In this document: piece by piece, positions 48,771 through 54,489 of the stretch
Numbering within the stretch: position 1 is the first letter of the stretch
Layout: each line of letters begins with the position of its first letter
Source: Phycisphaerae bacterium
Lineage (GTDB): Bacteria > Planctomycetota > Phycisphaerae > UBA1845 > PWPN01
Direction of reading: 5' to 3'
Assembly (NCBI GenBank): GCA_012729395.1
Contig: JAAYDF010000197.1
Coordinates: 1-63,793 of the forward strand
DNA: 63,793 nucleotides
Notes under the pieces: generated by a model
What the model was told of the DNA's origin: nothing
The model's input: the letters and a program-made list of their open reading frames with translations, nothing else
Database searches by the model: none
Program-made: the position numbers and the translations under genes

Positions 48771-48838
48771 CAGAGCCGCGCCCGTAAGGAAGCGGTTCAT
48801 CATTCCCCGAACCGCCGCTCCCTCACGGTCGCGGCTCC
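48771..48838. repeat. dispersed palindromic repeat, copy 3
   Basis: GAGCCGCGCCCGTAAGGAAGCGGTTC and its imperfect inverse GAACCGCCGCTCCCTCACGG...GGCTC face each other around a 10-bp centre. The right arm matches the family at 1775 and 26980. No gene is supported between 48839 and 49255. Confidence 0.6.
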
Positions 48839-49475: not shown

Positions 49476-49616
49476 TTGATGGATCTGCCCGGCGTATGTG
49501 TCTTACAGCAACAAGTTGCCTTGGTCCTGGCAACGGCCTCACGCTGAGCCGCCCGCCGCAAAAACGAACCCGGCCCGTTTTCTGCCTCGAACCCGGCCCG
49601 TTGTCTTCCTCTTTTT

Positions 49617-49680
49617 GAACAAGGAGGAAACGGAGCCAACAGAGGTGGATTTCTCTGTTGCCTCTGTTACCTCCTTGTTC
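49617..49680. repeat. 64-bp GxxExxY-flanking palindrome, copy 1
   Basis: The repeat begins GAACAAGGAGGAAACGGAG and ends ACCTCCTTGTTC, an inverted repeat. Copies 2 and 3 (50149, 50263) have the same length. Here it lies 42 bp past the stop of the nuclease-like gene. A pyrimidine-rich TCCTTTCTTCCTC-type tail follows, as it does after copies 2 and 3. Just before it, CGAACCCGGCCCGTT occurs twice (49566 and 49588). Confidence 0.85.
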
Positions 49681-49721
49681 CAATCCTTTCTTCCTCGTAT
49701 TGCCCATCAACTCGGCTCCTG

Positions 49722-50129
49722 TCATCTGTTAGCCCCAGGCAGCATCAGACGGACCACACCGTCGATCAGCTTGAGCTCATGGAAGTTGATGAGCAGCCCG
49801 ATCGGCACGTTCAGCAACTTCATGTAGCTCAGGAGCTGCGCCTGGTGGATCGGCAGCAGCTTCGGAGCCGCCTTCGCTTCGACCAGTACGCAGCCCTCGA
49901 CCAGGACATCGAACCGCAGGGGCTCCTCTCTGGTGAAGCCCTTGTATTCGATGATGACTGCCTTCTGGCTGACCCAGGCCAGGCCGCGCAGTTCGAGTTC
50001 CTTCAGCAGGCACCACTCATAGATGGACTCGATCAGGCCGGGGCCCTTGTCCCGATGAACTTCGATGGCCGCCCCGATAATCGATTCGGTCAGGCCTGAC
50101 GCTTCTTCATACAGCGGGTGCATGAACAC
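49722..50129 (-). CDS. GxxExxY-family protein (PD-(D/E)xK nuclease-like)
   Basis: The 135-residue protein has the name motif GLIESIYE (G-x2-E-x2-Y). The nuclease-like core follows: FDVLVEG (Asp), VLVEAKA (E-x-K) and AQLLSYMKLL (Gln/Tyr of motif IV). The end NVPIGLLINFHELKLIDGVVRL is family-typical. The family belongs to the PD-(D/E)xK superfamily, but activity is not established as far as I know. It is bracketed by three copies of a 64-bp palindrome (one downstream, two upstream). Its upstream neighbour on the same strand is the protease-FGE gene. Possible mobile or selfish unit; inference. Confidence 0.88.
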   Translation of the reverse strand: MFMHPLYEEASGLTESIIGAAIEVHRDKGPGLIESIYEWCLLKELELRGLAWVSQKAVIIEYKGFTREEPLRFDVLVEGCVLVEAKAAPKLLPIHQAQLLSYMKLLNVPIGLLINFHELKLIDGVVRLMLPGANR

Positions 50130-50148
50130 TGTCCCTAAGAGAGTTCTT

Positions 50149-50212
50149 GAACAAAGAGGAAACGGAGCAAACAGAGGCGCGTTTCTCCGTTACCTCTGTT
50201 GCCTCCTTGTTC
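50149..50212. repeat. 64-bp GxxExxY-flanking palindrome, copy 2
   Basis: Same length and arms as copy 1 (GAACAAAGAGGAAACGGAGC at the left, CCTCTGTTGCCTCCTTGTTC at the right). It lies 19 bp upstream of the GxxExxY start codon and could therefore influence its expression. Confidence 0.85.
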
Positions 50213-50262
50213 AAATTCTTCTTCCTTCCCAGCTCAAACCCGCTTCGCTCCAAGCCATTTTT

Positions 50263-50326
50263 GAACAAGGAGGAAACGGAGCAAACAGAGGTGGATTTCT
50301 CGGTTGCCCCAGTTACCTCCCTGTTC
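50263..50326. repeat. 64-bp GxxExxY-flanking palindrome, copy 3
   Basis: Same family, separated from copy 2 by 50 bp. The right arm has decayed (GCCCCAGTTACCTCCCTGTTC), while the left arm is intact. The copy is closer in its centre (GTGGATTTCTC) to copy 1 than to copy 2. Confidence 0.82.
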
Positions 50327-50541
50327 ACACCGCATTTCCTTCTTGGTTCTCCATGGCCAGACCCAGGACTGTATCAAGGATGGCACACGAACTTCTGCAT
50401 GTGGCGGATCAGCCACGACATGGAGTCGTAGGCATCCGCATTCACCCTCAGTTCCCGCGCCATGCAACCTTCTGTTCTTGCGCGGCCCCTCGCTTCGCTC
50501 GGGGCAAAGGGCAGAAGAACACAGGGCAAGGGGTAACACAA

Positions 50542-53500
50542 TCAGTCCACGCCGCCAACCGAACAAACCACCCGGAACCCGCCGTTGTTGTAGCGGTAGC
50601 CCGGGCTGCTGCCGCTGCGGCTCGCCACGCGGCAGCCGAAGGCGTAGAAGCCCCAGTAGCCGCCGCGCAGAACGCGATGCGTGCCACTCGCCGGCCCTCG
50701 CGGATTGCTGTACGGGCTGCTGCTGTAGTACGTGCCGCCGTACCAATCATTGCACCACTCCCACACGTTGCCGGCCATGTCGTACAGGCCGTAGCTGTTC
50801 GGCGCGAAGTACCCCCCCGGGCTGGTGTAGGGGAAGTCCCCAACTGCGAACGTCGGGTGATAGCCCCGTGTCGGACTGTCGTCGTAAGAGTAGTTGCTCG
50901 AAGAGTAGTAGTTCGCTCGGGCGTGCTGGATGGTGTCTTGGTCTGACCAGGGAAAGCGGCGACCACTCACGCCGCCCCGAGCCGCCTTCTCCCATTCGGC
51001 TTCGGTGGGCAGGCGGTAACCGCCGGCGGCGTAGTTGCAGTTCCAGGTGGCCAGATCGTAGCACATCGGCCGGCCTTCCATACCGCTGCGCCAGTTGGCG
51101 TAGGCCACCGAACCGTACCAGCTCACCTTAACCATCGGGTGGTTCTCTTTGCCTGCGGTGACGCCGAACGTGCTGCCGTCCCAGATGATCTGACTGTCCA
51201 AACTGCTCGTGACGGTGTCACAGTAAGCGGAATCGGTTTCGCTCCCAGCTTCATAAACAACACCCTCGATCACACTGATATGCCCGCCCTGCCTCCAAGC
51301 CCAGTTCAGCACATCGGCATACTGCTGGTTGGTCACCTCATAGCGGTCCACGTAGAAGGCGTCCACCCGGACGGCATGAACAGGAAGCTCTCGCTCGTCT
51401 GCCTCCCCCTCGTTGAACGTATCCCCCATCTGGAACTCGCCCGCTGGGATCATAACCATGTCTACCTGCGGGCAGACCGCCGTAGTGTTCAGCCGGTTGC
51501 GGACCTGGACCAAGTCGAAAATGTTGATCAGCCCGTCGGCATTGACGTCGGCACGGAAGTTGGCGGTCGTTACCGGTTGGTTCAGCTGGTTGCGGATCTG
51601 GACCAGGTCGAAGATATTTACGGCCGCATCGCCGTTGACGTCGCCGGACAGAACGCCGATGCGCACCCAGGTCTCGCTCTCCAAGCCGGTGACTCCCGAC
51701 ACGGCCAGTACCAGGCAGATGGCGTTCGGCACGTCGCTCAGCTCAACCGTGGCCTGCGTGCCAGCCACCAGGACCGCGTCCACGCTGCCCGCGGACGGCT
51801 GCACATGGACCCCGTCGGCCGACCCGCTGAAGGTCAGCAGCACCTGCGTCGGGCCGCCGACCCGCGGCTCGACTCCCGCGTCGCCGGAGATCGGCAAGGG
51901 CAAATCAACATCGAGCTCGCCCGCTGTCCCGTGGCTCTTGCGCGAGACCGCCCCCATCAGGAAGACCTCCTCGATACATTCCTGCTCTGCTTCGAGGCAG
52001 ATCTCGTCGGGCTCGCACGGCGGCACACCCACCCCACAGAAGCCATCCGCGCAAACCTCGGCACCGTTGCACCACACCCCGTCTCCGCAATCTTCGTCCA
52101 TCAGGCACTCGACGCACTCACCAGTCGCCGGGTCGCAGAAATCGTCGCCGCAGTCCACGGGGTTATTCTCACAAACCCCGCCCACGCAGGCGTCCGTGGT
52201 GCAGAGGTTCCCGTCGTCACAGTCGGCCTCGGACAGGCAGTAAGCGACGGTGACCACCAACGTGTCACTGGCTTGCAGTGCACTGTCGCTGGCCGTCAGA
52301 CGCAGAATGTAGTGTCCGACCGTGGAGAAGCTCGCCGTGGTCGCAACGTCTGCCGGATTCCCGAAAGTCACGGTACCCGGCCCGCTGGCCTTGGACCACA
52401 GGGTCGTGACGGTGCCGGGCGGGTTGGGGAGCCCGTCGTCGGTCACCGTGCCGGTCAGCGAGGCCCCGTTCGACAAGAGCACGGCCTGGTCCGGGCCGAC
52501 GTTGACGATCGGCGGCTGATTCTGCGGAGCCAGGATGAGTGTTCCCATCCGCGCGGTCACCGCATACGAATTCCAGGTGCCCGTGTCGCCACTGAACCAG
52601 TCCTTCAGGGTAAGCGTCCAGGTGCCGGCGGGGATCTCGCCCCAAAAGGCGTTGGTCGAGAAAGTCCAGTTGATGCCGTTAAAGGAGTCCGCCCCATTGC
52701 GGTGCATGAGCCGGCTGGTGATTCCGCTGGGTGAAGTCAGGTAGGCCTCGACATCTCCCCGCCAAGTGTGGCTGACGTTCAGGGTAACCAGCACTTCCTC
52801 AAGCGGTTGCGTGGCGCTGAGGTTGAACGTGCGCGAGACCCCGGTGGTGTCGTTGTCGGGGATCGCCGCACTAACGGAAACGGTACCGGTGGATTCGGTG
52901 GTCAGGGCGGTCACCCCGCTGTACAACGCGGCCTGCTGGGTCAACGCGTCAGCGTTGATGAGCCCGAAGCCGTAGTTCTGGTTGAACTTGAAGCCGGCCC
53001 CATTGGTCTTCCACCCGCCGTCGCTGAAGGCCGAGACATCGCTCGAATCAACCAAGGTGCTGGTGCGGACCAAGAGGTGCTTGGCGAACCGCACGTCGGC
53101 ATTGGGCTGTGCCTGCTTGACCAATGCCATCACCCCCGCAGCCAGCGGTGTAGCCGATGAGGTCCCGCCGAAGATGCTCGTGTAATCCGGGTCGGGGAAA
53201 GAATCGTCGCCGCCGTTATAGCCCGACGCTTCGCTCACGCGGTCGGTGGTGGTGATTCCAAACCCGCCGCTGGTGTTGGACGGAGCAGCCACGAAAACAC
53301 AGGCCCCCCAGTTGCTGTAACTGGAGAAGGTACCATTGCTACCGAAGGCGGCAACGCAGATGACATCGGGGCCGTTCTGGGTGTGTTTCTTGTTGGCGTC
53401 GCCATCGACGGCGTAGTCCACGTCGGATGTGAAACCGCCGCTGTCGTCCACGTCAATGTAGTACTCATGGTAGTCTCGCTCGTTACCGGCCGCAAAGCAG

Positions 53501-54408
53501 TGGATGGTGCCAGCACCCGCGGAGTTCTGCAGGGCGGCTACCTCCGCGGAGCTTGAGATGTATGGTATCGATATTCCGTAGCTGTGGTTCTTGATCTTGA
53601 TGTTCCTGTTCGCCCCATAGCTATGGTACTGGGTGGCGTCGACGAACATGGCCGTGGTCTGATCGACGAAGTCGATCCGCAGACCGGCCAGACTTGCGTA
53701 GGGTGCCGCCCCGGTCACTCCGACACCGTTGTTTCCGCGTGCCGCGGCCACACCCGCGACTGAGATACCGTGCTCATCATCACTGTGGACCGGGTTAGGA
53801 TCGCTGTCGCCTTGCCCGAAATCCCAACTGTCGGCGGCTACGTAATTGAGCGCAAGATCCGGGTGGGTAGTCTGGAAGGAGTCGTCCACGATACCGATCG
53901 TGACTCCACTGCCGGTGATGTCACGGTTCCATGCTCCCTGGACGCGGGCATCGCGGCCGGAGACATGTTCGTTGATGAGGTGCCACTGCCCCGGCCAACC
54001 GCTGGCGGGGGTGTTGCGGTGGAAGTAAGGATCGTTGGGCGTAAAGGCACACTTGACGTAACGTGTGCGTTCGTTGGCATAGGCCGCCACGACGCGGTTG
54101 TCCGCCTCGGTAGTCACGAGAGCGGCTTTCGCCGCCTGCGTCCCGCCAGCGACGAACACATAGGCGTCCGGATCACTACGCAAGCCGTACCGAACCGTCA
54201 ATCCATGCTGCTGGGCGAAGGTCTTGGCGTCCGTTCCCGGAGCCAGGAAGATCAGCAGTTCCGCCGTCTCGACAGTCTCAAGCGTCATCTCGGGTGGCGG
54301 GATCAGAGCCTCGCCGGCCATCATCTCTTTCTGGGCGAACGCAACCTCGCCGATCCCCAAAGCCCCCGCCAGCAGTGTGCTTAACCACGCGCTTCCGAAC
54401 CGTCCCAT
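50542..54408 (-). CDS. secreted subtilase with P-domain, dockerin and FGE domains
   Basis: The protein is 1288 residues from the ATG at 54408, preceded by GAGGAGGTG. Order: signal peptide (about 1-26, ending VAFAQ); pro-region; S8 peptidase with D175 (IVDDSF), H213 (DDEHGIS) and S417 (GGTSSATPL); proprotein-convertase P domain (about 500-615); PKD-like domain (VTDDGLP...); Cys-rich repeats (about 710-790); a dockerin-like pair (DVNGDAAVNIFDL and DVNADGLINIFDL, about 917-975); and a C-terminal FGE-sulfatase domain (about 983-1285: IPAGEFQMGD, GYRLPTEAEWEKAARGG, MAGNVWEW, HRVLRGGYW). Probably an extracellular protease. Whether the FGE part is enzymatic or a binding module is unclear. Confidence 0.9.
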   Translation of the reverse strand: MGRFGSAWLSTLLAGALGIGEVAFAQKEMMAGEALIPPPEMTLETVETAELLIFLAPGTDAKTFAQQHGLTVRYGLRSDPDAYVFVAGGTQAAKAALVTTEADNRVVAAYANERTRYVKCAFTPNDPYFHRNTPASGWPGQWHLINEHVSGRDARVQGAWNRDITGSGVTIGIVDDSFQTTHPDLALNYVAADSWDFGQGDSDPNPVHSDDEHGISVAGVAAARGNNGVGVTGAAPYASLAGLRIDFVDQTTAMFVDATQYHSYGANRNIKIKNHSYGISIPYISSSAEVAALQNSAGAGTIHCFAAGNERDYHEYYIDVDDSGGFTSDVDYAVDGDANKKHTQNGPDVICVAAFGSNGTFSSYSNWGACVFVAAPSNTSGGFGITTTDRVSEASGYNGGDDSFPDPDYTSIFGGTSSATPLAAGVMALVKQAQPNADVRFAKHLLVRTSTLVDSSDVSAFSDGGWKTNGAGFKFNQNYGFGLINADALTQQAALYSGVTALTTESTGTVSVSAAIPDNDTTGVSRTFNLSATQPLEEVLVTLNVSHTWRGDVEAYLTSPSGITSRLMHRNGADSFNGINWTFSTNAFWGEIPAGTWTLTLKDWFSGDTGTWNSYAVTARMGTLILAPQNQPPIVNVGPDQAVLLSNGASLTGTVTDDGLPNPPGTVTTLWSKASGPGTVTFGNPADVATTASFSTVGHYILRLTASDSALQASDTLVVTVAYCLSEADCDDGNLCTTDACVGGVCENNPVDCGDDFCDPATGECVECLMDEDCGDGVWCNGAEVCADGFCGVGVPPCEPDEICLEAEQECIEEVFLMGAVSRKSHGTAGELDVDLPLPISGDAGVEPRVGGPTQVLLTFSGSADGVHVQPSAGSVDAVLVAGTQATVELSDVPNAICLVLAVSGVTGLESETWVRIGVLSGDVNGDAAVNIFDLVQIRNQLNQPVTTANFRADVNADGLINIFDLVQVRNRLNTTAVCPQVDMVMIPAGEFQMGDTFNEGEADERELPVHAVRVDAFYVDRYEVTNQQYADVLNWAWRQGGHISVIEGVVYEAGSETDSAYCDTVTSSLDSQIIWDGSTFGVTAGKENHPMVKVSWYGSVAYANWRSGMEGRPMCYDLATWNCNYAAGGYRLPTEAEWEKAARGGVSGRRFPWSDQDTIQHARANYYSSSNYSYDDSPTRGYHPTFAVGDFPYTSPGGYFAPNSYGLYDMAGNVWEWCNDWYGGTYYSSSPYSNPRGPASGTHRVLRGGYWGFYAFGCRVASRSGSSPGYRYNNGGFRVVCSVGGVD

Positions 54409-54489
54409 GTGAGCACCTCCTCGTTGAGTTGACCATCTCGCGTAACGTGTCACGCCGTCTGCGTACAACACACCCCGACATCCCATGAC

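Follow-up and report, generated by a model that had tools for sequence, protein, structure and literature searches.

The GxxExxY proteins (TIGR04256), a very common family to which no function has been assigned, are nearly always encoded between inverted, periodically built DNA arms, and the spelling (dialect) of these arms follows the clade of the protein rather than the host. We read this arrangement, with a probability of roughly 0.5, as a one-gene selfish element, usually of about 520 nt, in which a nuclease resembling Cas4 and RecB would act on its own inverted arms. The example from which the analysis started lies in the window (the whole stretch of 63,793 nt analysed here), and is laid out below together with a survey of related loci, their dialects, the turnover of elements at fixed sites, and the distribution of palindromes that lack the gene.

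The window element and its protein

The window element occupies the intergenic space between fusA and a protease gene (Table 1). An earlier note on this DNA had described three 64-nt inverted repeats at 49617, 50149 and 50263; palindromic cores do start at exactly these positions, with 25, 22 and 21 of the 28 outer positions paired, and the three form a direct-repeat family with a mutual identity of 79–82%. They are the strongest hairpin family of the whole window, and their arm scores of 21 and 18.5 exceed the highest score (16.5) that 12 dinucleotide shuffles of this DNA produced, which rules out chance hairpins. The pyrimidine-rich tails that the same note reported are indeed present, but their conservation between copies is weak. 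Two features had escaped it: the arms have an internal period of 9 nt (palindrome 1 is built from such units, of the AACAGAGG type), and the gene lies between arms that are inverted copies of one another, the segment 49614-49644 finding its partner across the gene in the inner arm of palindrome 2 (50185-50215). The gene is flanked here by complete palindromes and not by single arms. Upstream of fusA in the relatives examined we found no hairpin or CRCNRAG dimer of the window kind, and the window element is therefore probably specific to this lineage.

Table 1. Positions of the element and its parts in the window.
Feature	Position	Strand	Description
Palindrome 1	49614..49683	no strand	64-nt core 49617-49680, 31-nt arms, 8-nt loop
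GxxExxY gene (TIGR04256 / PF13366)	49722..50129	-	135 aa, GTG start, profile matches
Palindrome 2	50144..50215	no strand	64-nt core 50149-50212
Palindrome 3	50258..50329	no strand	64-nt core 50263-50326; like palindrome 2, lies 5' of the gene
Whole window element	49612..50342	no strand	palindrome - GxxExxY gene - palindrome - palindrome

Two neighbours of the element may be mentioned in passing. The gene beside it (50542-54486, minus strand) encodes, as read from its sequence, a subtilisin-like protease of 1314 aa that contains a dockerin-like stretch and, at its C-terminus, a domain like that of formylglycine-generating enzymes. A second hairpin at 48773-48837 (GAGCCGCGCCCGTAAGGAAGCGG..CCGCTCCCTCACGGTCGCGGCTC) is unrelated to the element palindromes, and sequence like it occurs also on contigs C8 and C211 of the same genome, near other palindromes.

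The enclosed gene is intact and was correctly named from the outset: its product matches the TIGR04256 profile at 3e-36 (124.3 bits, cut-off 35) and the PF13366 (PDDEXK_3) profile at 1.5e-34 (119.3 bits, cut-off 22), and is a clear member of this family, which is named only by motif. The protein keeps the family-invariant residues G29, E34, Y37, D74 and E84xK86; all of 46 sequences compared have D74, E84 and K86, and Q98 is nearly invariant, and there is no conserved cysteine among the invariant or nearly invariant columns, so that the protein is not a canonical Cas4. An AlphaFold2 model (pLDDT 94) predicts a minimal PD-(D/E)xK nuclease fold of the Cas4/RecB kind, for which the best match among solved structures is the Cas4 protein SSO0001 (4ic1; Z 8.5, rmsd 4.7 over 105 residues), followed in Foldseek by alkaline and lambda exonucleases; archaeal Holliday junction resolvases also resemble the model at a lower Z of 6.3, and VIA-align also matches numerous restriction-type folds at Z 5-7, which says nothing about function. 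Searching the sequences of solved structures with the window protein gave no relative, and in a Pfam/NCBIfam scan the sole match was to a PD-(D/E)xK family, with no match to a Y1 HUH transposase.

Inverted arms across phyla and their dialects

To survey the arrangement more widely, we assembled 98 GxxExxY loci, of which 28 come from whole genomes within the window's phylum and 70 from named records of many phyla, and aligned the 450 nt upstream of each gene to the reverse complement of the 450 nt downstream. Inverted arms scoring at least 14 are present at 89.8% of these loci; mismatched pairings reach this score in 8.6% of cases, and none of 88 distal flank pairs, sampled 900 nt farther from the gene, does so. 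The proposal that gene and palindromes form a unit is thus borne out across phyla. True pairs have a median score of 21.5 and mismatched arms that share a dialect one of 11.5, and the arms of one locus therefore match each other beyond a shared word. The common grammar consists of an outer end ACC followed by repeated CRCNRAG units, spaced at 8 nt (117 cases), 9 nt (64) or 10 nt (27). Inverted pairs of CRCNRAG dimers occur at 59 of the 98 loci and at 0 of 87 distal flanks, and the median element measures 522 nt. Such pairs of gene and palindrome occur in Planctomycetota, Bacteroidota, Cyanobacteriota, Acidobacteriota, Chloroflexota and Pseudomonadota, and also in at least one archaeal assembly; the presence of the gene within the phylum of the window is patchy (70 of 149 genomes). 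Transport by phages or plasmids was considered and rejected on the representation of GxxExxY in phage records (0 of 50,697), plasmid records (8 of 72,556) and viral contigs (1 of 2.9 million).

As a comparison we used TIGR02436, a small, mobile-looking family (four-helix bundle) unrelated to GxxExxY, whose relatives include the rRNA intervening-sequence protein (23S IVP-like). Inverted arms scoring at least 14 flank 86% of 29 TIGR02436 loci, versus 2.5% of mismatched pairings, and are built from a unit with a period of 7 nt (mean self-match 0.60 at lag 7). Because this unit differs, and because inverted CRCNRAG dimers occur at just 1 of 28 TIGR02436 loci, the arms are not one generic genomic repeat; TIGR02436 constitutes a parallel and apparently undescribed class of element. 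The two families co-occur in genomes. Examples of the 7-nt unit at the Planctomycetota loci L215-L244 include AGTGGTTAGTGG, GGTGTCTGGTGTCTGG and GGGTTCCGGGTTCC.

Within the genome from which the window derives (5.74 Mb in 370 contigs), inverted periodic arms bracket all four GxxExxY genes, and we accordingly dropped the notion that the three window palindromes are a one-off. Each of the four has its own arm spelling (AACAGAGG-type in the window, and CACNGAG-, CACAAAG- and CACAGATT-type elsewhere), so that the copies are diverged and do not represent recent bursts. The window dialect has few copies in the genome, among them gene-free palindromes on contigs C8, C327 and C211.

The relation between arm dialect and protein is quantitative. 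Arm similarity correlates with protein identity (Mantel rho 0.34, with 0 of 2000 permutations as high), and the correlation is unchanged when GC is controlled. Mapped on a maximum-likelihood tree inferred from 88 proteins, the classes of arm spelling require 22 changes compared with 38.6 when shuffled, and none of 200 shuffles came as low as 22. The four copies of the window's genome fall in different parts of this tree, each with the dialect that is typical of the surrounding branches; locus L056, whose arms are of the GAG type, encodes the sister of the window protein (support 100/92), and L018 lies within the GAT clade (support 99/99). Part of this signal stems from co-inheritance alone, since gene and arms are physically linked; the linkage leaves unexplained that all units in both arms change jointly.

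Turnover at fixed sites and palindromes without the gene

Pairs of occupied and empty sites, which the earlier note had named as something to look for, do exist. In a genus of seven species, the spacer before dnaJ holds an element in two genomes (G034, G095) and is short and empty in three others (G002, G211, G212); this dnaJ-side position is an insertion hotspot. A second case is an intergenic site between converging genes in 15 Dolichospermum genomes, the content of which varies: it may be allele A, with CGCAGAG arms, allele B, with CGCAAAG arms, allele C, with other arms and an inverted gene, pseudogene remnants, a bare palindrome (L269) or no such structure at all (L271). Element genes of one type share 89-99% identity and those of different types at most 79%, while the flanks of the site are up to 97% identical. 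Alleles A, B and C are confined to that single site in each genome, and the pattern is therefore one of replacement at a fixed place and not of a jumping burst; old alleles may possibly have been replaced by homologous recombination. Nostoc carries a matching site. Within the Dolichospermum allele types dN/dS is 0.03-0.35, demonstrating that the GxxExxY protein is under purifying selection. Neither a target duplication nor an insertion junction resolved to the base was found for the gene-bearing element: at the dnaJ and Dolichospermum empty sites the flanking spacers are too diverged for exact junctions, and 400-kb stretches of three Dolichospermum genomes, which share too little synteny, yielded no base-exact junctions either. 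The dnaJ site contains other small genes in L153 (G210) and L152 (G209), the one in G210 being macro-domain-like.

Palindromes without a nuclease gene, predicted in the earlier note, are abundant. The pattern ACCRCNRAGN{1,3}CRCNRAGN{1,3}CRCNRAG matches 1,965 times in 149 Planctomycetota genomes, and its reversed control about five times. Two of 58 solo elements (L212 and L191) contain internally deleted remnants of GxxExxY, compared with none in the control, and some solo palindromes therefore derive from gene-bearing elements. After subtraction of two arms per gene, four or more extra copies of the pattern are found in 21 of 70 genomes with the gene versus 6 of 79 without it (p 5e-4). The suggestion that palindrome number tracks the gene thus holds insofar as many extra copies are rarer in genomes that lack it, but the association is moderate; the raw counts (40 of 70 versus 6 of 79) are inflated by the gene's own arms, and we discarded them as proof of spread.

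Additional observations bear on how the solo copies travel. Some motif-rich genomes have no detectable GxxExxY gene in their incomplete assemblies (G051, with 128 copies, and G039, with 40). A comparison of solo with resident-gene dialects over several genomes, with few loci per genome, gave a mixed picture; in G004, G093 and G106 the dialect of solitary copies differs from that of the examined gene copies. In G091, which likewise has no detectable GxxExxY gene, inverted arms of the CGCAGAG type enclose a DUF2971 protein (L195:1015-1902) and an uncharacterised 310-aa protein (L196:1002-2348), possibly as captured cargo. Finally, the window's own genome contains a MITE of about 191 nt that bears a CACCAAG-type hairpin and has inverted ends GTAACCGTTCACG, with 8-bp target duplications that are exact in one case (GATTGGTC) and read CAGCGATG/CAGCGTTG in another; we take it to be IS66-like, judging by its ends and the length of the duplication. 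It occurs at six loci (L394, L395, L398, L399, L388 and L384, on contigs C131, C135, C254, C260, C34 and C327), and at least some solo hairpins of this genome move inside it. Given the motif-rich genomes without the gene, the dialect mismatches, the DUF2971 and 310-aa cargo and the MITE-borne hairpins, solo palindromes probably spread in more than one way. The solo hairpins at L204-L208 in G044 (486 motif hits) have common arms and outer flanks (GGATGTC and TTCGCCTTCGGCGAA palindromes) around mutually unrelated loops of roughly 90-140 nt.

Competing explanations and known systems

If the element is selfish, we infer that it would work as follows. The GxxExxY protein would bind the units repeated in its own arms, either in duplex form or extruded as a hairpin, and would cut at these arms or at palindromic sites related to them; repair of the break by the host, or template-switching during replication, could then copy, swap, invert or trim the element. 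Arms that have lost the gene would act as MITE-like or REP-like palindromes, and would decay or hitch-hike on other elements. Taken further, and tentatively, the GxxExxY elements may be mobile DNA of a new class, whose free-standing nuclease of the Cas4 type would read a lineage-specific arm code of tandem 8-10-nt units and, without a transposase, recombinase or reverse transcriptase, would spread or replace itself and its gene-free palindromes by break repair, with the TIGR02436 elements and their 7-nt code as a parallel class.

The main rival to the selfish-element reading holds that other machinery (IS-type MITEs or host recombination between repeats) mobilises the arms, and that GxxExxY is cargo, perhaps an addiction or defence gene. 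Such an arrangement would accommodate the hairpins inside the MITE with its 8-bp duplications, the other genes within the same kind of arms, and the motif-rich genomes without GxxExxY. We nevertheless consider it unlikely, as it leaves unexplained both the tracking of the protein tree by arm dialect across phyla and the separate repeat class of another protein family; moreover, nearly all gene-sized inverted pairs in the loci examined contain GxxExxY, albeit in a sample biased towards this gene. A domesticated role, in which nuclease and palindromes are a resident pair serving DNA maintenance (for example at cruciforms, or at forks stalled at the hairpins), strikes us as improbable: the patchiness, the empty sites, the pseudogene remnants and the swapping of alleles are usual marks of selfish genes, even though long retention at one Dolichospermum site with its counterpart in Nostoc, the purifying selection, and the weaker fold likeness to Holliday junction resolvases are what such a role would lead one to expect.

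Another reading works at the level of RNA. One-gene inserts with inverted arms resemble rRNA intervening sequences, and TIGR02436, with its IVP relatives, has the same design with a 7-nt unit; the arms might accordingly pair in the transcript and RNase III excise the stem, so that the insert is tolerated, with the protein acting on RNA or being incidental. The observed sites are intergenic, however, RNase III needs only a stem and not tandem units in a protein-specific dialect, and the predicted fold is of a DNA-nuclease type, all of which makes this quite improbable. That the hairpins are ordinary terminators or REP-like regulators with GxxExxY nearby by coincidence is strongly disfavoured: although terminators are common between converging genes such as those at the Dolichospermum site, the arms lie on both sides of the gene in 90% of loci versus 0 of 88 distal flanks, their dialect is coupled to the protein clade, and arms separated by a gene form no terminator. 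Should the selfish-element reading hold, GxxExxY would become the protein half of a protein-palindrome pair, and the many periodic palindromes that environmental genomes contain without a name would be explained; the loci would also supply proteins already matched to DNA 'words' for studying how a tiny nuclease reads tandem units, with the coupling of dialect to clade making specificity directly testable.

The architecture of the element resembles that of insertion sequences with MITEs and of the REP/RAYT system, whereas its protein class and repeat grammar are unlike either. With insertion sequences it shares a single gene between terminal inverted repeats, internally deleted copies, a gene-free copy at an orthologous site that is occupied elsewhere (L269), and presence or absence at orthologous sites; it differs in having no known transposase domain and in inverted ends that are arrays of units with dialects. 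As in the REP/RAYT system, palindromes flank a single nuclease-type gene, gene-free palindromes are scattered, sites persist, and a genome may hold several protein types, with a separate palindrome type for every protein lineage. Unlike RAYTs, to which it has no relation, the GxxExxY protein is of the PD-(D/E)xK and not the Y1 HUH type, its arms are tandem 8-10-nt units, and the gene can occupy the loop between them. REP palindromes are tagged with GTAG or CGTC (PMC3733652, PMC2817692), and the ends of the window palindromes (GAACAAGGAGG..CCTCCTTGTTC) carry neither tag. The intervening sequences of 23S rRNA with their S23p/IVP proteins, described as selfish in Coxiella (PMC4990558), are similarly short one-gene inserts with inverted arms; the GxxExxY element differs in being intergenic, in its periodic arms, and in a protein unrelated to S23p. 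The searchable literature (5.39 million papers), which excludes most subscription journals, contains two papers that name GxxExxY, neither of them on repeats, and no account of arms or palindromes flanking GxxExxY (TIGR04256), and text searches for the repeat words returned only unrelated papers. With the Cas4, lambda-exonuclease and RecB nucleases the family shares its predicted fold and active-site pattern; it lacks the four conserved Fe-S cysteines of Cas4, and in the window the protein is much shorter, at 135 aa, and is encoded by a free-standing gene.
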